Assembly (NCBI GenBank): GCA_028704975.1
Contig: JAQWEK010000006.1
Coordinates: 1 to 34,224, forward strand
Direction of reading: 5' to 3'
Source of the DNA: Bacteroidales bacterium
Lineage (GTDB): Bacteria; Bacteroidota; Bacteroidia; Bacteroidales; UBA932
DNA length: 34,224 nucleotides
This document shows, in pieces, positions 13,114-34,224 of this stretch. Each line of letters starts with the position of its first letter. Within the stretch, counting starts at the first letter, position 1. Under the pieces are notes generated by a model. It was not told where the DNA came from. It made no database searches and worked only from the letters and a program-made list of their open reading frames with translations. The position numbers and the translations under genes are program-made.

Positions 13114-14976
13114 TCAATTTTTCGTTGCTGCCAATATTGATTTGCTTATTGAGTCCGCATCCAGGCCGCATTCAATAAGTTGTTCATTCACAGTTGAATG
13201 TTCAATAAAACGATCCGGAATTCCAAGGCCGGTTATCTTTATGTTATCAATACCCTTTCCGACAATGTATTCACAGACAGCCCCATACAAGCCTCCTATT
13301 ACAGTACCGTCCTCTACAGTAACAATTTTTTTACAGTTATTTAACGCCTCATCTATTGCTGACTTGTCTAGAGGTTTCAAAAATCTCATGTTATAGTGAG
13401 CAACGCTAATATTCTCTTTTTCAGCAATTTCAATTGCTTTCTCAACATTGTTCCCGATAGTTCCTATAGACAGTACGGCAATGTCCTTTCCCTCTTTTAT
13501 CTTAACAGCTTTCCCAATTTCTATTTTGTTAAAATCTTTTGGAAGTTTCAAACCTTGACAGCAGCCTCTCGGGTAACGGATGGATATTGGACCTGTGTAC
13601 TCGGGAAGAGATGCGGAATAGAGCATATCTTGCAATTCTATTTCATTGAGCGGCGCCATTTCTGTGATATTGGGAACGATGCGCAGATATGATAAATCAA
13701 ATGCGCCCTGATGTGTGGCACCGTCTTCTCCAACAAGCCCCCCTCTGTCTATACAGAAAATAACTTTCAAATTTTGCAGTGCAACATCGTGAATAATCTG
13801 ATCATAAGCACGTTGCATGAAAGATGAATATATGTTGCAAAATGGCAGCATACCTCCTGCGGCAAGACCTGCGGAAAAAGTTACGGCGTGCTCTTCTGCA
13901 ATTCCCACATCAAATGTTCTCTCCGGAAATACTTTAAGCATGTCGCATAACTGACCGCCGCTTAACATTGCCGGAGTGATACCTACAATTTTGTCATTTT
14001 CTTTTGCAAGTCTGACAATAGTTTGTCCAAAAATGTTCTGATATTTAAGGGGTTGTCCCGCTTTTGAGATTCTCTCTCCTGTCTCTACGTCAAACTTTCC
14101 CGGTGCGTGCCAGATGCTTTGAGCCTTCTCTGCCGGTTCATATCCTTTGCCTTTTAGTGTTCTTATGTGCAGCAGTTTAGGCCCTTTAAGGTCTTTTAGA
14201 TTTGTTAAAGTTGTGATAAGCTCTCCTATATCATTGCCATCTATTGTGCCAAAATATCTGAAACCAAGTCCCTCAAACACAGAGCCGTGCTTAACTACGG
14301 CAATCTTTGTGCTCATTGCAAATTTTTGCAGTATTGCTCTAAGTTTTCCGTTGCCTACTTTGTTCCAAATATCATTTTTGATTCTGTTATAAGTAGGTGA
14401 CGTGGTGATTTTGACAAGATAGTTGTGCATTGCACCAACGTTTTTGTCTATGGCAATTTGATTATCATTTAGTATGACAAGAATGTTTGTTTTGGAAACG
14501 CCGGCATTATTTAATCCCTCAAAAGAAAGACCGCCTGTTGCGGCGCCGTCGCCGAGCACAGCCACAATCTTTATGTCTTCACCCTTCAGCTTTGCAGCAG
14601 TTGCAAGTCCCAGAGCTGCTGATACAGAGGTTGATGCGTGCCCCACTCCAAATGCGTCATACGGACTCTCGCTCATTTTTGGGAATCCGCTGGGACCGTT
14701 CTTTGTTCTGTTATTTTTGAACTCTTCTCTCCTGCCTGTGAGAATTTTGTGGGCATAAGCCTGATGTCCTACATCCCAAACAATTTTATCATTTGGAGTA
14801 TCAAATACATAGTGAAGAGCAACCGCAAGTTCTACCGCCCCCAAAGAGGCTCCCAGATGTCCGGGATTCTTTGCGCAACACTCGGTGATGTATTCTCTTA
14901 ACTCTTTGCACAGTCTGACAAGCTCTCCTGTGTTAAGTCCTTTTAAGTCTTTAGGTGAATTAATTTTCTCTAACAT
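13114..14976 (-). CDS. dxs: 1-deoxy-D-xylulose-5-phosphate synthase
   Basis: First enzyme of the MEP isoprenoid pathway: condenses pyruvate and glyceraldehyde 3-phosphate, using thiamine diphosphate. It has 620 residues, full length. Visible elements are NPGHLGAS with the conserved His (residue 40), the thiamine diphosphate motif starting GDGAATGG (142-149) and ending NDN (170-172), the pyrimidine-domain EEHAV segment with the catalytic Glu, and the transketolase C-terminal domain. The -7 element TACCTTTG lies about 25 bases upstream. The 3' end runs toward the tRNA promoter with no terminator seen, so some readthrough is possible. Confidence 0.97.
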   Translation of the reverse strand: MLEKINSPKDLKGLNTGELVRLCKELREYITECCAKNPGHLGASLGAVELAVALHYVFDTPNDKIVWDVGHQAYAHKILTGRREEFKNNRTKNGPSGFPKMSESPYDAFGVGHASTSVSAALGLATAAKLKGEDIKIVAVLGDGAATGGLSFEGLNNAGVSKTNILVILNDNQIAIDKNVGAMHNYLVKITTSPTYNRIKNDIWNKVGNGKLRAILQKFAMSTKIAVVKHGSVFEGLGFRYFGTIDGNDIGELITTLTNLKDLKGPKLLHIRTLKGKGYEPAEKAQSIWHAPGKFDVETGERISKAGQPLKYQNIFGQTIVRLAKENDKIVGITPAMLSGGQLCDMLKVFPERTFDVGIAEEHAVTFSAGLAAGGMLPFCNIYSSFMQRAYDQIIHDVALQNLKVIFCIDRGGLVGEDGATHQGAFDLSYLRIVPNITEMAPLNEIELQDMLYSASLPEYTGPISIRYPRGCCQGLKLPKDFNKIEIGKAVKIKEGKDIAVLSIGTIGNNVEKAIEIAEKENISVAHYNMRFLKPLDKSAIDEALNNCKKIVTVEDGTVIGGLYGAVCEYIVGKGIDNIKITGLGIPDRFIEHSTVNEQLIECGLDADSISKSILAATKN

Positions 14977-15135: not shown

Positions 15136-16581
15136 ATGACTAATGTACAAAAATTAATGAACGACAGCTTTGTTGCTCGTTGGGCGGCACTGATACTCAT
15201 CGCCTTGATGATGTTCTTTGGATATATGTTTGTGGATGTGATGTCCCCGCTGCAGACAATGCTGGAAACACAAAGAGGTTGGACTCCGGATGTTTTTGGA
15301 ACATACGCAGCTTCTGAATATATATTAAACGTATGCGGATTTTTAATCCTTGCAGGTATTATCCTGGATAAGTGCGGCGTAAGGTTTACAGGCACACTCT
15401 CTGCTTCTTTAATGGTGATTGGCGCATCAATCAAATTTATAGGAATTAGCGACTGGTTCCAAACTACAAATTTCTGCGCATGGCTAAATACTTGGTGGAC
15501 AGCACTTCCTGCAAGCGCAAAATTATCTTGTCTTGGCTTTATGATTTTCGGCAGCGGTTGTGAGATGGCCGGAATTACTGTTTCTAAAGCTATTGCAAAA
15601 TGGTTTAAAGGAAAAGAGATGGCACTTGCAATGGGAATAGAGATGGCGATTGCGCGTCTTGGCGTGTTTGCAGTATTTTCTATTTCTCCGCTTATTGCCA
15701 ATTCTCATTTTTGGCAGAACCTTTGCGGAACACCTGTTGTTGCGCCGGTTGCATTTTGCACAGTACTACTCTTGATTGGCTTGATTAACTTCCTGGTTTT
15801 CAGAGTTATGGATAGTAAGTTTGACAAACAGCTTGGAGCTATGTCAACCGGAGAGCCGGAGGAAGAATTTAAGATTGGCGATCTTGGAAAAATTTTCGGC
15901 AGTAGAATGTTCTGGATTGTTGCGCTTCTTTGCGTGCTTTATTATTCAGCAATTTTCCCATTCCAGAGATATGCAACTAACTTCCTTGAGAGCACTCTGA
16001 ATATCCCGACGGAAACTGCAGCCAATTTGTTCCACTGGTTCCCGATCTTGGCTATGGTTCTGACTCCGTTTCTTGGTTCATTTATTGATTATAAAGGCAA
16101 AGGGGCGTCTATGCTTCTGTACGGTTCTTTGATAATGATTATCTGTCACTTATCATTTGCATTCTTGCTGCCGGCTTATCCAAAACAATGGCTTGCGCTA
16201 TTAATTATTGTAGTACTTGGAGTATCATTCTCTTTGGTCCCCGCATCATTGTGGCCAAGCGTGCCAAAGATTATAGACAGACAAATTTTAGGAAGTGCTT
16301 ATGCACTTATATTCTGGATCCAGAACATAGGACTTTGCTTTGTTCCTAAGATTATCGGTAATGTGCTAAATGCTGTTAATCCCGGAGTTGCAGAGGCTCG
16401 TCAGGCGGCGGAGCAAGCTCATCAGGCACTTCCTGCATATAATTACACAGTCCCTATGATTATTTTTGCATCATTTGGAGTTGCCGCATTTATTCTAAGT
16501 TTCTGGTTAAAAGCTGAGGATAAACGCAAGAAGTACGGCCTGGAACTTCCTAATATTCAGAAGAAATCTGCTGAGGCCTAA
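15136..16581 (+). CDS. MFS transporter, MFSD1-like (paralogue 1 of 3)
   Basis: Inner-membrane major facilitator transporter, 481 residues with about 12 hydrophobic segments and a basic cytoplasmic tail. The loop 2-3 motif is LDKCGVRFTG (about 78-87). A signature around the fourth and fifth helices has an acidic residue in GSGCEMAGI (E143), then WFKGKE (156-161) and an arginine in AIARLG (R174). From memory, the same pattern occurs in animal MFSD1, a lysosomal dipeptide transporter; the family assignment is by motif and the substrate is inferred. It shares WPS.PKII and WIQN segments with the two neighbouring paralogues and lies 54 nt before the second one, probably in one operon. Nitrate- or sugar-type MFS function is less likely but not excluded. 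Confidence 0.8.
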   Translation: MTNVQKLMNDSFVARWAALILIALMMFFGYMFVDVMSPLQTMLETQRGWTPDVFGTYAASEYILNVCGFLILAGIILDKCGVRFTGTLSASLMVIGASIKFIGISDWFQTTNFCAWLNTWWTALPASAKLSCLGFMIFGSGCEMAGITVSKAIAKWFKGKEMALAMGIEMAIARLGVFAVFSISPLIANSHFWQNLCGTPVVAPVAFCTVLLLIGLINFLVFRVMDSKFDKQLGAMSTGEPEEEFKIGDLGKIFGSRMFWIVALLCVLYYSAIFPFQRYATNFLESTLNIPTETAANLFHWFPILAMVLTPFLGSFIDYKGKGASMLLYGSLIMIICHLSFAFLLPAYPKQWLALLIIVVLGVSFSLVPASLWPSVPKIIDRQILGSAYALIFWIQNIGLCFVPKIIGNVLNAVNPGVAEARQAAEQAHQALPAYNYTVPMIIFASFGVAAFILSFWLKAEDKRKKYGLELPNIQKKSAEA

Positions 16582-16635
16582 ATATTAGAGCAGAGCTTTG
16601 CTGACTATAATATCCTAAAAACTCAAATATATAAA

Positions 16636-18063
16636 ATGGAGAAAGCCATAAAATTACTAAGAGATTCAAAAAGCGCTCGCTGGCTGGTACTTGCCTGTCT
16701 GGTAGTTCCAATGTTTGCGTCCTACTTTTTTGATGACATGTTCTCTACGGTGTCTCATATTTTCAAGACTCCGGAATTTGTTCAGTTGGCCTGGAATTCA
16801 CAAGATTACGGCTTTTATGCCGGCGGTTATTCATTCTTGTGCGTTTGGGGCGGCTTGATTATTTGCGGAATGCTTCTTGATAAATGGGGCGTTCGTTTTA
16901 CAGGTTCATTATTTGTAGCCATGATGGTTGGCGGTGCCGGAATTGTTGCTTATGCAATCAGCGGCTGTTTTAACGGCAGCGAACTTCATAACTGGATGGC
17001 TGGATTCACCGCAAAACCCTCATTAGTACTGGCTTATATTGGTTGTACATTGTTCGGGCTCGGCAGTGAAATTGCCGGAGTTGCGGTGACGCGGTCAATT
17101 GCCAAATGGTTCAAAGGAAAAGAAATGGCCTTGGCAATGGGACTTCAGCTTTCAATTGCGCGTCTTGGTACAGCTCTTGCTTTTGTATTTGCACCCACTT
17201 TGGTTGGTCTTACAGATGCTCCCGGCAAGTTTTATTCTTTTGCCGATACAGGAAAGCCGGCACTTGTAGGTCTTGGAATTATGGCGGTTGGAATTGTGTT
17301 GTGGAGTTTATTTATCACGATGGATTTTCGTCTGGATAAACAGACGGGAGAGACTGATAAAAAGGAGATTAAAGAGGAGGATAAGTTTAAGTTTTCTGAC
17401 ATTTTTAAAATTTTGACAAACAAGCATTACATCCTTGTCTCTTTGCTTTGCGTTTTCTTCTATTGCTGTATTATTTCATTCAAAAAGTTTGGTACGTCAA
17501 TTCTTATTCCTCGTTTTGGAATAGATTTGGAGGTTGCAAAATGGATGATTGCAATGATCCCTTTCTTTACGGTAATTTTTACTCCGTTATTTGGCTCTCT
17601 TGTGGATCATAAGGGAAAGGGGACAACATGGATGATACTTGGTTCATGCGTAGTACTTCTTGCACACCTTTTAATATGCTTTGCACCGGGCGGTTCTCAT
17701 TTCTGCGGTTATGCGGCAATTGCTCTTTTGGGCGTTGGATATTCATTGGTCCCGGCTGCGATGTGGCCGTCTATTCCAAAGATTATTCCGGAGAAAAATC
17801 TTGGTTCCGCATACTCTTTGATTTATTGGATTCAGAATATGGGAATGTTATTAGTTCCAATATTTGTAGGCGGTATATTAAAGAAATATATAATTGATGC
17901 TAACAATGTTTCACAGCAAGTCAGCGCTGCGGTTCATGCAGAGTATCTGTTTATAGGTCTTGGTATTGTGGCTGTAACTGTTTCTATTTTGCTTGCAAAA
18001 TCTTCTAAGAAAAATCCTCAACTGCATTTGGATGATCCCAATAAAGTTAAGAAGGCTGCGTAA
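16636..18063 (+). CDS. MFS transporter, MFSD1-like (paralogue 2 of 3)
   Basis: 475-residue paralogue of the preceding gene with about 12 membrane segments. It shows the same signature: RWLVLA at the start of helix 1, LDKWGVRFTG in the 2-3 loop, the membrane Glu in GLGSEIAGV (E145), WFKGKE (158-163), SIARLG with R176, then AAMWPSIPKII and YWIQNMG in the C-terminal half. An unusual acidic/basic central loop (KKEIKEEDK) links the two six-helix bundles. Divergence from its neighbour suggests old duplication and different substrate preference. Its end faces the third paralogue across a bidirectional terminator. Confidence 0.8.
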   Translation: MEKAIKLLRDSKSARWLVLACLVVPMFASYFFDDMFSTVSHIFKTPEFVQLAWNSQDYGFYAGGYSFLCVWGGLIICGMLLDKWGVRFTGSLFVAMMVGGAGIVAYAISGCFNGSELHNWMAGFTAKPSLVLAYIGCTLFGLGSEIAGVAVTRSIAKWFKGKEMALAMGLQLSIARLGTALAFVFAPTLVGLTDAPGKFYSFADTGKPALVGLGIMAVGIVLWSLFITMDFRLDKQTGETDKKEIKEEDKFKFSDIFKILTNKHYILVSLLCVFFYCCIISFKKFGTSILIPRFGIDLEVAKWMIAMIPFFTVIFTPLFGSLVDHKGKGTTWMILGSCVVLLAHLLICFAPGGSHFCGYAAIALLGVGYSLVPAAMWPSIPKIIPEKNLGSAYSLIYWIQNMGMLLVPIFVGGILKKYIIDANNVSQQVSAAVHAEYLFIGLGIVAVTVSILLAKSSKKNPQLHLDDPNKVKKAA

Positions 18064-18071
18064 ATAAAGAT

Positions 18072-18085
18072 ACCGCTTAAGCGGT
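18072..18085. repeat. 14-bp perfect palindrome
   Basis: ACCGCTTAAGCGGT lies just after the stop of the second MFS gene and before the larger terminator hairpin. It may add to termination or be a protein site; nothing further can be said. Confidence 0.35.
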
Positions 18086-18097
18086 GATTATTAATAG

Positions 18098-18137
18098 AAT
18101 AAAAAGGCGATCAAAATATTTTGACCGCCTTTTTATT
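18098..18137. terminator. Bidirectional terminator between convergent MFS genes
   Basis: AATAAAAAGGCG (18098-18109) pairs with CGCCTTTTTATT (18126-18137); after one A/C mismatch the inner arms TCAAAAT and ATTTTGA also pair, leaving almost no loop. The stem gives a T-rich tail on both strands, as expected for a terminator shared by converging genes. Confidence 0.85.
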
Positions 18138-18218
18138 CTTTAAAATCCGGAGTTCTTATGTTCAAGATTTTGTGTTCCTGTGTTTAGGATATTGTGCTCT
18201 TAATAAATATCCGTCTCG

Positions 18219-19694
18219 TTATCTCTCTTTCTCCTTCTCATTATCTTTCTCTTTTTCTGCCTCTGCTTTTGCTTCTGCTTTTATATTAGGTTCTTGTAAG
18301 CCGTAATGCTTTCTCCCATTTAAAGACTTTAAGCAAAAAGCCAGAATAATTGCAATTGAGCATGTGATTGCAAAGGTCAGCATAGGCAGTACGTAATTAT
18401 ATTTTGGATTCTCCGGATATCTTACAGGTAATGCTGCATTATAAGTGGATAAAATACAGTATTTATTTAATATCCAGCCTATAAGCATAGGAACTCCCCA
18501 TAGGCCTATGTTCTGGATATAGTAGGTTAGCGCCATTGCCGTTCCGAATTGTTTTTCCGGAATTATTTTGGCAAGGGACGGCCACATTGCGGAAGGGAGC
18601 ATTGCAAAACCAATTCCCAAAAGAATCATCAAAATTATGGCAATCCAAGGAGCGTGAGTAAACGGAAGAGCAAAGAATAAATGCACGCCTGTTATGAGCA
18701 CAGCTCCAAAAATCATCAGGTCCGCTCCATGTCCGTATTTGTCATAAATTCTTCCAAATAAAGGAGTTAAAATGATGCATCCAAACGGTAGAATTGCAGG
18801 AATGGCACCGGCCCATTTTTCCGCCACACCAAATTTGTTAACCATGAGAGATGAAGCAAACTGGTAGAAAGGGGAAACCGCTGCGTAAAAAATCAGACAC
18901 AAAAATGCAATCAGCCAAAATCCCGGATTAGTAACAATAGCTTTAACATCTTTAAGAGAGAATGCGTCATCTTCTGTCTCTCCAGCCGCTAATTTGTTTT
19001 CCGCCAGCTGTTTATCCAAACGCTTGTCTTGGATGCAATAGAAGAAGAAACAAACCAGCGCTATGCCAAGGAGAATAAGCGCAAACATTACCGATGCGCT
19101 AACATTGCCGTAATGTGCTGCAATTAAAGGAGAAACCGTAAGAGCAAGGGCGGATCCAAGTCTTGCAAGCGCAAGCTGAAGACCCATTGCCATGGCCATC
19201 TCCTTACCTTTGAACCACTTAACAATAATCTTGCTCACAGTTATTCCCGCAACCTCAGAACCAACTCCAAAAATTCCAAATCCTATGACAACCCATATTA
19301 CCTGTTTTTTCATGTGCGCCCCGACAAAATAGCCAAGATTTTGCGCGCCTGTAGCGGGGTCAATAACGGGTATGCAAGTTATTGCGTAGTACTTAATTGC
19401 AATACCTATTACCATAAGAACGCATGATAACATTCCGGTAAATCTTACTCCTTTTTTGTCCAGAATAAAACCGCCGAATATTAGCATGCCAAGGAAAACA
19501 TTGAAGATAGAATAAGAACCGGCAAACCAGCCGAATTCAATGCTGTTCCAAAGATTGTTTTCCTCAAGCATTGTTTGCAGAGGAGCAAAGATATCAGAGG
19601 TGACGTAAGCTGCAAACATCACCAACGAGATTATAAGCAAGGCTAACCATCTAGCTGCAGCAGAATCTCTTAAGGTTTTTTTTATAGTATCCAT
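18219..19694 (-). CDS. MFS transporter, MFSD1-like (paralogue 3 of 3)
   Basis: 491-residue third member of the transporter set, on the opposite strand. It has the same signature (LDKKGVRFTG, GVGSEVAGI with E147, WFKGKE at 160-165, LALARLG with R178, SAMWPSLAKII, YYIQNIG). It differs by a longer extracytoplasmic loop near residues 106-125 and a highly charged C-terminal tail of Lys/Glu/Ala repeats ending EKEKER, probably cytoplasmic and disordered. It starts 23 nt after purA on the same strand with no promoter between, so it is likely expressed with purA. Substrate unknown; a dipeptide or amino-acid-like compound is an inference from the MFSD1 resemblance. Confidence 0.8.
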   Translation of the reverse strand: MDTIKKTLRDSAAARWLALLIISLVMFAAYVTSDIFAPLQTMLEENNLWNSIEFGWFAGSYSIFNVFLGMLIFGGFILDKKGVRFTGMLSCVLMVIGIAIKYYAITCIPVIDPATGAQNLGYFVGAHMKKQVIWVVIGFGIFGVGSEVAGITVSKIIVKWFKGKEMAMAMGLQLALARLGSALALTVSPLIAAHYGNVSASVMFALILLGIALVCFFFYCIQDKRLDKQLAENKLAAGETEDDAFSLKDVKAIVTNPGFWLIAFLCLIFYAAVSPFYQFASSLMVNKFGVAEKWAGAIPAILPFGCIILTPLFGRIYDKYGHGADLMIFGAVLITGVHLFFALPFTHAPWIAIILMILLGIGFAMLPSAMWPSLAKIIPEKQFGTAMALTYYIQNIGLWGVPMLIGWILNKYCILSTYNAALPVRYPENPKYNYVLPMLTFAITCSIAIILAFCLKSLNGRKHYGLQEPNIKAEAKAEAEKEKDNEKEKER

Positions 19695-19717: not shown

Positions 19718-21001
19718 TTATCTCTTTGACGCTTTTTGTTTCTTTCTGACTATGGTTTGACTTCTGTCGGGACCTACGGAAATGACACTTATAGGTACTT
19801 GTAACTCTTTCTCTATGAAGCTAATATATTGTTTGTATGCGGCAGGGAAGTCACTGTCCTTTTTGCATTTGCTGAGATCTTTTTTCCAACCTTTGAACTC
19901 TTTGTAAACCGGTTCAATTTTGGCGTATGTGTCATAAGGGACTCTATCGGTTTTTTGTCCGTCCACTTTGTATGCAACTGCAACTTTAATCTTGTCAAAA
20001 GTGTCCATGACATCTGCTTTCATCATGATAAGACTTGTTACGCCGTTAAGCATAATGGCATACTTAAGTGCCGGAATATCAAGCCATCCGGTTCTTCTTG
20101 GACGTCCGGTTGTTGCGCCAAATTCACATCCTCTTTGTCTTAGCTCTTCTCCTGTTTTGTCAAGCAATTCTGTAGGGAAAGGACCCGCGCCAACTCTTGT
20201 GCAGTACGCTTTGAAAATTCCGTAAACCTTTCCAATCTTAAGAGGGGAAAGTCCAAGGCCTGTGCATGCGCCTGCGCAAATAGTTGAGGATGAGGTTACA
20301 AAAGGATACGCACCAAAATCTACATCCAGCAAAGTTCCCTGAGCCCCCTCCGCAAGAGCATTCTTTGTTTTAAGATATTTATTCAGTTCATATTCACTGT
20401 CTACAATCTGGAACTTCTTAAGATAATTTACAGCATCCATCCACTCTTTCTCATGTTCTTCTGTATTGTATTGGAAATCAAATTGCTTAAGAAATATTTT
20501 ATGTTTCTCCTTAAGTGCGTTGAATCTGTCTTTGAAATCTTTTGCAAGAATATCTCCAACTCTCAATCCGTTGCGTCCTGTTTTATCCATGTATGTCGGT
20601 CCGATTCCCTTAAGAGTAGAACCAATCTTGGTCTTTCCTTTGGAGGCCTCTGAAGCTGCGTCAATAATTTTATGGGTAGGCAAAATTAAGTGCGCCTTCT
20701 TAGAGATTATAACTCTCTTGGTAACAGGTACTCCCAGAGCTTCAATTCCTTTACATTCTTCTCTGAAAATAATAGGGTCAAGCACAACGCCGTTGCCTAC
20801 AATGTTGATAGTATTTTTTCTGAACACACCGGCGGGAACAGAATGAAGAACAAATTTTTTGCCCTCAAAATTCAAAGAATGTCCTGCGTTAGGGCCCCCC
20901 TGGAACCTGCAGATTACCGGATAATTTTTTGCAAGAACGTCAACAATTTTTCCCTTGCCCTCGTCTCCCCACTGTAGTCCTAAAACAACATCAACTTTCA
21001 T
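19718..21001 (-). CDS. purA: Adenylosuccinate synthetase
   Basis: GTP-dependent conversion of IMP and aspartate to adenylosuccinate, the first committed step to AMP. It has 427 residues, full length. The N-terminal GDEGKGK loop (residues 12-18) holds the catalytic Asp13, and His41 lies in NAGHSL. Further along are GPTYMDKTGRNGLR, contributing to IMP binding, and GATTGRPRRTGWLD near the GTP and aspartate sites. It sits 41 nt after ssb and 23 nt before the third MFS gene. Confidence 0.98.
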   Translation of the reverse strand: MKVDVVLGLQWGDEGKGKIVDVLAKNYPVICRFQGGPNAGHSLNFEGKKFVLHSVPAGVFRKNTINIVGNGVVLDPIIFREECKGIEALGVPVTKRVIISKKAHLILPTHKIIDAASEASKGKTKIGSTLKGIGPTYMDKTGRNGLRVGDILAKDFKDRFNALKEKHKIFLKQFDFQYNTEEHEKEWMDAVNYLKKFQIVDSEYELNKYLKTKNALAEGAQGTLLDVDFGAYPFVTSSSTICAGACTGLGLSPLKIGKVYGIFKAYCTRVGAGPFPTELLDKTGEELRQRGCEFGATTGRPRRTGWLDIPALKYAIMLNGVTSLIMMKADVMDTFDKIKVAVAYKVDGQKTDRVPYDTYAKIEPVYKEFKGWKKDLSKCKKDSDFPAAYKQYISFIEKELQVPISVISVGPDRSQTIVRKKQKASKR

Positions 21002-22405: not shown

Positions 22406-23032
22406 TTACCAATTGATATGAGAAAATTTTTGTAGGAACAAGGACAGGTGGTATCCGTCTCCGAATCCGTGGTGGATTTTTACAGAGACCGGCATCATGA
22501 TTCTATTGCCGCTTTTATAAAACTTTCCGGTTACTATGTGCGGAAATGAGGCATCGAAAGGTGAAAAGGGCTCTGCAACCGCCGTAAAATTTACCCAAGG
22601 GACACAGGAAAAGCAGATAAGATTTCCATGCATATTATCCGCCCCAAGGTTGAGACCGTTCGACATTTCGGCCTGATTTTCAGTTTTTCTGGCCTCCTTT
22701 ATGAAAGAGTCTATATCGCTATTGTTGTTAAACCAGACAAAAGCCAGTGTCTTGTTTCTCTTTCTAAGATATGTCGGGCCAATACTTGTATTATCATACA
22801 GATAAACTTCCCCGTTTTCTATTCTGTATCTGAAATTTTCTATGTCGTCCGCAATCTTTAATGTGTTGTAAAGGGTTGTCATGTAAAAGGAACGTCCCGT
22901 GCTTTGTGCGTAATCGTACACCTCGGTAACGTCTACGTCCGCAAGCACTCCTCCCATGGGATATTTAAACTTTGAGAAGTACTCGTATACTTCTTTGCGT
23001 TCCCATTTTTGAATATCTATCTTCGTTTTCAT
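22406..23032 (-). CDS. CatA-like acyltransferase (chloramphenicol acetyltransferase family)
   Basis: 208 residues, the size of a type A chloramphenicol acetyltransferase subunit. The catalytic motif HHGFGDG (187-193) matches HHxxxDG with the general-base His188. The segment FSCVPWVNFT (141-150) aligns with the family's S-x-x-P-W-x-x-F-T region and includes the conserved Ser142. The family acts as a trimer that transfers acetyl from acetyl-CoA to a hydroxyl. Its start overlaps the stop of the upstream methyltransferase by one base (TAATG), and it sits inside a housekeeping operon with matching base composition. That argues for a resident enzyme with an unknown native acceptor rather than an acquired resistance gene. 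Confidence 0.82.
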   Translation of the reverse strand: MKTKIDIQKWERKEVYEYFSKFKYPMGGVLADVDVTEVYDYAQSTGRSFYMTTLYNTLKIADDIENFRYRIENGEVYLYDNTSIGPTYLRKRNKTLAFVWFNNNSDIDSFIKEARKTENQAEMSNGLNLGADNMHGNLICFSCVPWVNFTAVAEPFSPFDASFPHIVTGKFYKSGNRIMMPVSVKIHHGFGDGYHLSLFLQKFSHINW

Positions 23033-33457: not shown

Positions 33458-34224
33458 ATGGAAAAAGAATTTAGACCAAGGCGCTCTGACTCAAAGAGTA
33501 CAGGACGCAGCTACGGACACAGAAATTTCTCAGCCGGGGAAGGCTCAGGACGTCCGCAAAGAAGAAGTTTTCATCACGACAGAGATGACAAAGGTGAAAG
33601 CTCAGAAGACAGACCGCGCAGAAGTTTTGGAGGCTCACGTGACGGAGGAGATAGACCGCGCAGAAGTTTTGGAGGCTCACGCGACGGAGGAGATAGACCG
33701 CGCAGAAGTTTTGGAGGCTCGCATGACAGAAAATTTGGAGAGAGAAAATTTGATGTAAGGAAAAAAATTGAGGGTGCAGCAGAAGGAGAAGGAGGAGATG
33801 TAAAAGAGCGCACGCCAAGAACATACAGTCATTCAAGAAGTTTTGGCGACAGACCGCGTAGAAGTTTTGGAGGCTCACGTGACGGAGGTGACAGACCGCG
33901 CAGAAGCTTTGGAGGCTCACGTGACGGAGGTGACAGACCGCACAGAAGCTTTGGAGGCTCACGTGACGGAGGTGACAGACCGCGCAGAAGTTTTGGAGGC
34001 TCACGTGACGAAGGCGACAGACCGCGCAGAAGCTTTGGAGGCTCACGCGACGGAGGTGACAGACCGCACAGAAGTTTTGGAGGCTCACGCGATGGAGGCG
34101 ACAGATCGCGCAGAAGTTTTGGAGGCTCACGCGACGGAGGTGACAGACCGCACAGAAGATTTGGAGGCTCACGCGACGGAGGAGACAGACCGCGCAGAAG
34201 TTTTGGGGGCTCCCGCGACGGAGG
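33458..34224 (+). CDS. Arg/Gly/Phe-rich repeat protein, 5' part (possible N-terminal extension of an RluB-type pseudouridine synthase)
   Basis: The frame opens at ATG 33458-33460 (MEKEFRPRRS) and remains open for 255 codons to the right edge. After about 50 low-complexity residues come three units of DRPRRSFGGSRDGG (residues 51-92), a linker with KFDVRKKIEGAAEGEGG, and from residue 131 nine more units, the last cut by the window. The protein so far is strongly basic, without hydrophobic core, and disordered; RGG-like and FGG motifs suggest RNA binding or phase separation. In Bacteroidota, 16S/23S pseudouridine synthases of the RluB family often carry such N-terminal tails, but no catalytic residue is visible here, so the function is a guess. 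The frame antisense to it is an artefact of the repeat. Confidence 0.8.
   Translation, partial: MEKEFRPRRSDSKSTGRSYGHRNFSAGEGSGRPQRRSFHHDRDDKGESSEDRPRRSFGGSRDGGDRPRRSFGGSRDGGDRPRRSFGGSHDRKFGERKFDVRKKIEGAAEGEGGDVKERTPRTYSHSRSFGDRPRRSFGGSRDGGDRPRRSFGGSRDGGDRPHRSFGGSRDGGDRPRRSFGGSRDEGDRPRRSFGGSRDGGDRPHRSFGGSRDGGDRSRRSFGGSRDGGDRPHRRFGGSRDGGDRPRRSFGGSRDG
33608..33733 (+). repeat. 42-bp tandem coding repeat, block 1 (3 units)
   Basis: Three in-frame 42-bp units starting at 33608, 33650 and 33692. The first two are nearly identical; the third diverges at its end (SHDRK). Each encodes D-R-P-R-R-S-F-G-G-S-R-D-G-G. Confidence 0.9.
33848..34224 (+). repeat. 42-bp tandem coding repeat, block 2 (8 full units plus one cut)
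   Basis: Units start every 42 bases at 33848, 33890, 33932, 33974, 34016, 34058, 34100, 34142 and 34184; the last has 41 bases before the window ends. Most variation is synonymous (CGT/CGC, AGT/AGC) or a few substitutions (R to H, P to S, G to E), which indicates recent copying by slippage or recombination under selection for the peptide. Confidence 0.92.

Follow-up and report, generated by a model that had tools for sequence, protein, structure and literature searches.

The three clustered transporter genes T1, T2 and T3 in the window analysed here (a 34,224-nucleotide stretch of DNA from a member of the Bacteroidales) almost certainly encode new members of the known MFSD1 family, judged by their sequences, and fall in a bacterial branch of it that has apparently not been studied. 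The three proteins are probably inner-membrane dipeptide importers that would feed cytosolic dipeptidases. MFSD1 of the mouse (PDB 8r8q) is a lysosomal dipeptide uniporter that works with the accessory subunit GLMP (PMC11252000, PMC10990142). In the literature searched, neither a study of bacterial MFSD1-family members nor transport data for them was found. The spread of the family in the Bacteroidales, the T1-T2 tandem, and the neighbourhood of PepD and other peptide-related genes are the new points reported here.

The source genome is a metagenome-type assembly of 1.67 Mb in 173 contigs, and its named relatives are Bacteroidales. The features at the transporter locus are as follows.

13114-14976, minus strand: dxs (PF13292), divergent from T1
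15136-16581, plus strand: T1, predicted MFSD1-family MFS transporter, 481 aa (MFS_1, E=2e-21)
16636-18063, plus strand: T2, predicted MFSD1-family MFS transporter, 475 aa, tandem partner of T1 (MFS_1, E=3e-37)
18071-18086, no strand assigned: candidate bidirectional terminator between T2 and T3, an inverted repeat (TACCGC TTAA GCGGTG) with T-rich flanks on both strands
18219-19694, minus strand: T3, predicted MFSD1-family MFS transporter, 491 aa, convergent to T2 (match to MFSD1 8r8q, E=2.8e-33)
19718-21001, minus strand: purA, adenylosuccinate synthetase (PF00709), directly upstream of T3

Three open reading frames at these positions, next to housekeeping genes, were described in the original prediction, and this description is borne out. 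The same source spoke of three copies in a row, which is accurate for T1 and T2, a tandem on the plus strand with a spacing of 54 bp, and not for T3, which lies convergent to them on the minus strand. T1, T2 and T3 share about 36-41% identity with one another. Since T3 is separated from purA by only 23 bp and shares its strand, the two genes are perhaps co-transcribed. The repeat at 18071-18086 could stop transcription from both sides, for which the evidence is weak because a terminator scan gave 7 sites of this kind against 5.2 in shuffled controls. The remaining genes of the window are housekeeping genes, including rpoB, rplL, rplJ, rplA, rplK, nusG, tuf, ssb, a class II tRNA synthetase, recJ, gyrA and others besides dxs and purA; purA and dxs are conserved neighbours that stand outside the transporter function. 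Within the housekeeping run, a chloramphenicol-acetyltransferase-family protein (PF00302, 101 bits) is encoded at 22406-23032 on the minus strand, flanked by genes for a SpoU methylase and shikimate dehydrogenase, and at 33471-34172, also on the minus strand, there is a 233-aa open reading frame with a GTG start whose sole Pfam match is sub-threshold and zinc-finger-like.

The family assignment is supported by sequence searches, predicted structures and trees. When all PDB chains were searched by sequence, mouse MFSD1 was matched by T3 with E=2.8e-33 over 400 residues and by T1 with E=9e-22, in the latter case as the sole PDB match, and no second transporter appeared at E<=1 in either search; T2 was found by an MFSD1 fragment query at E=3.6e-30. 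A profile built from 68 relatives gave MFSD1 184.6 bits and the next protein, LacY, 25.8 bits, and with a second profile, covering the bacterial family more widely, MFSD1 scored 236 bits and DgoT of E. coli 18 bits, with NarK, GlpT, OxlT, SfMCT and YhjX below 0. The AlphaFold2 models of T1 (pLDDT 93.5) and T3 (pLDDT 90.6) both had 8r8q as the top PDB match in Foldseek, with E=2.7e-12 and E=6e-13, respectively. With TM-scores of 0.62-0.65 by query length, MFSD1 is not separable from other MFS structures and is told apart only by Foldseek E-value and identity, so the fold match is support and not proof. In the tree, MFSD1 and the bacterial family are separated from OxlT, SfMCT and YhjX by a branch with 100/100 support, and in a quick tree to which NarK, GlpT and DgoT were added they again fall together on one side. 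MFSD1 itself is placed with an MFSD1-close subclade of the Bacteroidales at 70/100, which is only moderate evidence because it is a single eukaryotic sequence on a long branch; no donor lineage is claimed, since its placement differs between the quick and the careful tree. The relationship to MFSD1, which had been proposed from motifs, is thus one on which sequence, predicted fold, dipeptide-site conservation and trees all agree; profile and structure-based searches return MFSD1 8r8q as the best transporter match, and phylogeny gives no grouping of T1-T3 with sugar-phosphate, nitrate or oxalate families.

It is extremely improbable that the likeness to MFSD1 is superficial and that the proteins belong to another MFS family, such as those for nitrate, sugar phosphate, galactonate or oxalate/lactate. 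Weak NCBIfam matches of this sort do occur (TIGR00893, 50 bits against a cut-off of 395; TIGR00886, 37 against 312; SfMCT, 46 against 320), but the profile gives MFSD1 236 bits and the other families at most 18, MFSD1 site residues are mostly missing from those families, and the trees speak against such a placement. T1, T2 and T3 all match MFS_1, and no curated NCBIfam assignment was obtained for any of them, every NCBIfam match being far under its cut-off. SfMCT and OxlT (OFA) and DgoT (ACS) share the general MFS fold and a weak profile similarity with T1-T3, whereas T1-T3 score far below the cut-offs of these families. Membership of the NarK, DgoT, SfMCT or GlpT family was ruled out by scores and site residues. 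The POT/PTR2 proteins (SLC15, DtpA) are proton-coupled peptide transporters, and they resemble T1-T3 in the MFS fold, in the probable dipeptide substrate and in occurring near PepD; they nevertheless form a separate family, as neither a PF00854 (PTR2) match nor the TM1 motif ExxERFxYY was found in T1, T2 or T3.

In MFSD1, the N-terminus of the bound dipeptide is clamped by Glu150 and its C-terminus by Arg181, and the peptide is surrounded by Tyr56, Asp60, Tyr276, Trp373, Gln396 and Asn397 (PMC11252000). Transport is lost in D60, E150, R181 and W373 mutants, halved by Y56A and abolished by Q176K (PMC11252000). The corresponding residues, in the order Y56, D60, E150, Q176, R181, Y276, W373, Q396 and N397 of MFSD1, are listed below.

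T1: Y30, D34, E143, E169, R174, Y270, W373, Q396, N397
T2: Y30, D34, E145, Q171, R176, Y276, W377, Q400, N401
T3: Y30, D34, E147, Q173, R178, Y270, W371, Q394, N395

With the exception of Q176, all of these residues are conserved in T1, T2 and T3. The numbering given earlier for the helix-4 glutamate and the arginine was exact, and by alignment this pair corresponds to the two MFSD1 residues that clamp the peptide, E150 and R181. The segments WFKGKE, LDKxGVRFTG and WPSxxKII were also found in all three proteins as described. These shared motifs go beyond chance, as the key residues are conserved over 247 aligned bacterial homologues: Y56, E150, R181, Y276 and W373 are identical in 247 of 247, Q396 and N397 show a single exception, one N397A, among the sequences that have a residue in those columns, and D60 is retained in nearly all. 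NarK, GlpT, DgoT, OxlT, SfMCT and YhjX, by comparison, lack most of the MFSD1 site residues, the full set being present in 0 of the 6.

Other positions of MFSD1 are not kept. In essentially all bacterial members, the gate residue N157 is replaced by S or T, F173 by M, Q393 by F or Y, and T158 by K or R, and in all close T1-type proteins Q176 is replaced by E (E169 of T1). In the gate and ancillary set N157, F173, Q176, Y365, Y389 and Q393, only Y389 in T1 and T2, Q176 in T2 and T3, and Y365 in T2 are kept, the others being substituted. These differences, which count against dipeptide import, may alter coupling, gating or side-chain preference, and the charged positions T158 (K/R) and Q176 (E) are candidates for coupling differences. 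They also bear on the possibility, clearly less probable than dipeptide import and yet the foremost alternative to it, that the proteins have MFSD1-family ancestry and today transport small zwitterions of another kind or modified peptides, for example single amino acids, gamma-glutamyl or D-Ala-containing dipeptides, or cell-wall fragments, with the linkage to PepD and Dpp5 described below belonging to part of the family. The substitutions at Q176, T158, F173 and Q393, together with the position of F280, which varies in T2 and T3, would change the cavity, and the T1, T2 and T3 types, with the divergence given above, form separate clades, which is consistent with different substrates. Against this, none of the types shows any change in the residues that hold the two ends of the peptide.

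The family is widespread in the Bacteroidales. With mouse MFSD1 as the query, a homologue was found in 100 of 119 Bacteroidales genomes at E<=1e-5, and in a phylum-wide sample in 47 of 297 at the stricter E<=1e-15, nearly all of these outside the class to which the window belongs. Some Bacteroidales homologues reach 34-38% full-length identity with MFSD1 and are closer to it than T1, T2 and T3. About 50 of 80 Bacteroidales loci preserve the T1-T2 tandem, and the pair is usually flanked in relatives by dxs and/or purA. In named isolates these proteins are annotated only as 'MFS transporter', and a search of plasmids contributed nothing beyond further named hosts in the Bacteroidales. The bacterial members, 28-38% identical to MFSD1, resemble it across the whole transmembrane core, in the core dipeptide-site residues, in the WFKGKE loop and ARxG motif and in being its top fold match; apart from the substitutions given above, they differ from lysosomal MFSD1 in their predicted location in the inner membrane and in the occurrence of T1-T2 pairs. 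T1 and T2 may represent two specificities or a pair.

The gene context in relatives gives independent support for dipeptides as the substrate. PepD is a cytosolic broad-specificity dipeptidase, and it is the commonest neighbour of the transporter genes in the 80 order-wide loci, with a length of 483-507 aa and an identity resting on TIGR01893 (592-622 bits against a cut-off of 344). It adjoins the transporter gene in 11 of the 80 loci, co-directionally in 10 and with a gap of 16-171 bp. By a hand tally combining transporter and PepD positions, PepD lies within 4 kb of a transporter gene in at least 19 genomes (G043, G053, G057, G062, G069, G081, G082, G090, G095, G100, G105, G115, G116, G121, G132, G140, G142, G154 and G158), on the same strand in 18 of the 19. 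About 0.7 genomes would be expected by chance (Poisson p of about 2e-21), an approximate estimate that assumes about 2 PepD genes per genome and is affected by the genomes not being fully independent. On the transporter tree the linkage amounts to 15 carriers and 14 changes and PepD is found on either side of the transporter, so the link seems to have been made or kept repeatedly and looks unlike a single inherited arrangement. In locus L181 (5959-13058), an MFSD1-like transporter, OPT (TIGR00733), PepD (TIGR01893) and POT (TIGR00924) are encoded in succession on one strand, an apparent peptide-uptake island judging from its gene content.

In L034, L037 and L079, a gap of 0-29 bp separates the transporter gene from Dpp5 (NF053518, 1084 bits against a cut-off of 900) on its upstream side; the transporters there are T1-type genes or a T3/T1-type pair. 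This dipeptidyl-peptidase is periplasmic in P. gingivalis, an organism that generates dipeptides in its periplasm and then imports them (PMC8048996). In the genome of the window, genes were found for Dpp5, for two S46 peptidases and two PepD proteins, and for one POT and one OPT transporter; these are the components of the dipeptide economy known from P. gingivalis (PMC8048996). In 8 of the order-wide loci, secreted trypsin-like proteases were also encoded not far from the transporter; those of L201, L211, L149 and L151 lie less than 200 bp from MFSD1-like genes, some with type IX secretion signals, and the association is weak because only about 4 loci have the protease within 200 bp.

Because family genes often adjoin dipeptide-digesting enzymes, dipeptide import is the probable function. 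Its counterpoint is that housekeeping genes, and no peptidase genes, surround the transporters in the window; linkage to PepD and Dpp5 was seen in relatives. The PepD link is absent in this window and, generally, beside T1-T2 tandems, so it supports the family and not this locus. Peptidase neighbours being mostly missing at T1-T2 loci also fits transport of other zwitterions or modified peptides, against which stand the PepD linkage seen in several transporter subclades and the position of Dpp5 beside T1-type genes or the T3/T1-type pair. A further counterpoint to dipeptide import is that POT and OPT are already encoded in the genome of the window. A pot-opt double mutant of P. gingivalis scarcely grew (PMC8048996), so that in one species of the Bacteroidales the bulk of dipeptide uptake can be handled by POT and OPT.

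As importers, T1, T2 and T3 would each be an inner-membrane carrier of the rocker-switch type with 12 helices, the dipeptide being held in the central cavity. The peptide N-terminus would be bound by the TM4 glutamate (E143/E145/E147) and the C-terminus by the TM5 arginine (R174/R176/R178), and the site would be completed by tyrosine and aspartate of TM1, tyrosine of TM7, tryptophan of TM10, and glutamine and asparagine of TM11. Dipeptides released by periplasmic dipeptidyl-peptidases (Dpp5, S46) would cross into the cytoplasm and be split there by PepD, and the driving force would be either uniport pulled by PepD hydrolysis or proton coupling. MFSD1 moves dipeptides from the lumen to the cytosol, a direction that translates to import in bacteria because the lysosomal lumen is topologically equivalent to the periplasm. 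As MFSD1 is a uniporter (PMC11252000), the direction would be set by the gradient, and the proteins might instead be exporters that relieve a cytoplasmic overflow of dipeptides or amino acids. Export is unlikely, given the topology of MFSD1 transport, the recurrent partner PepD, which is cytosolic and would maintain an inward gradient, and the periplasmic or secreted peptidases among the neighbours.

Several bacterial relatives carry inserts of 60-192 aa, absent from MFSD1, in periplasmic loops of the C-terminal half. In 12 relatives an insert of 89-192 aa follows the position of MFSD1 residue 413 in the TM11-TM12 loop; it measures 160-192 aa in MFSD1-close homologues of 640-700 aa (L113, L116, L128, L131 and L132), and the same insert class is present in L145, L147, L148, L161, L164 and L165. 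A Pfam scan of two homologues with long TM11-TM12 inserts gave no match for the insert. Another insert, of about 60 aa, follows MFSD1 residue 295 in the periplasmic loop joining TM7 and TM8; it was seen in 10 T1 orthologues from other species of the genus of the window (L086, L090-L093 and L095-L099), and T1 of the window is without it. MFSD1 touches GLMP via Tyr416 in the TM11-TM12 loop (PMC11252000), and it is a speculation that the longer insert in this loop stands in for GLMP. Among the main predicted proteins of the window there was no GLMP-family Pfam match.

Peptide uptake is central to the physiology of the Bacteroidales. In P. gingivalis, the best-studied case, it has been credited to POT and OPT (PMC8048996). 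A broader and rather doubtful picture would have the MFSD1 family of the Bacteroidota as a major unrecognised route of dipeptide uptake alongside POT/OPT, with T1 and T2 as an obligate pair, the role of GLMP built into the TM11-TM12 domain of some relatives, and animal MFSD1 descended from the bacterial family or sharing an ancestor with it. A third transporter family, common in Bacteroidales genomes under a generic annotation, now has a residue-level hypothesis for its function. Its bacterial members should serve as convenient models of MFSD1, and the bacterial family bears on the origin of MFSD1 in eukaryotes.
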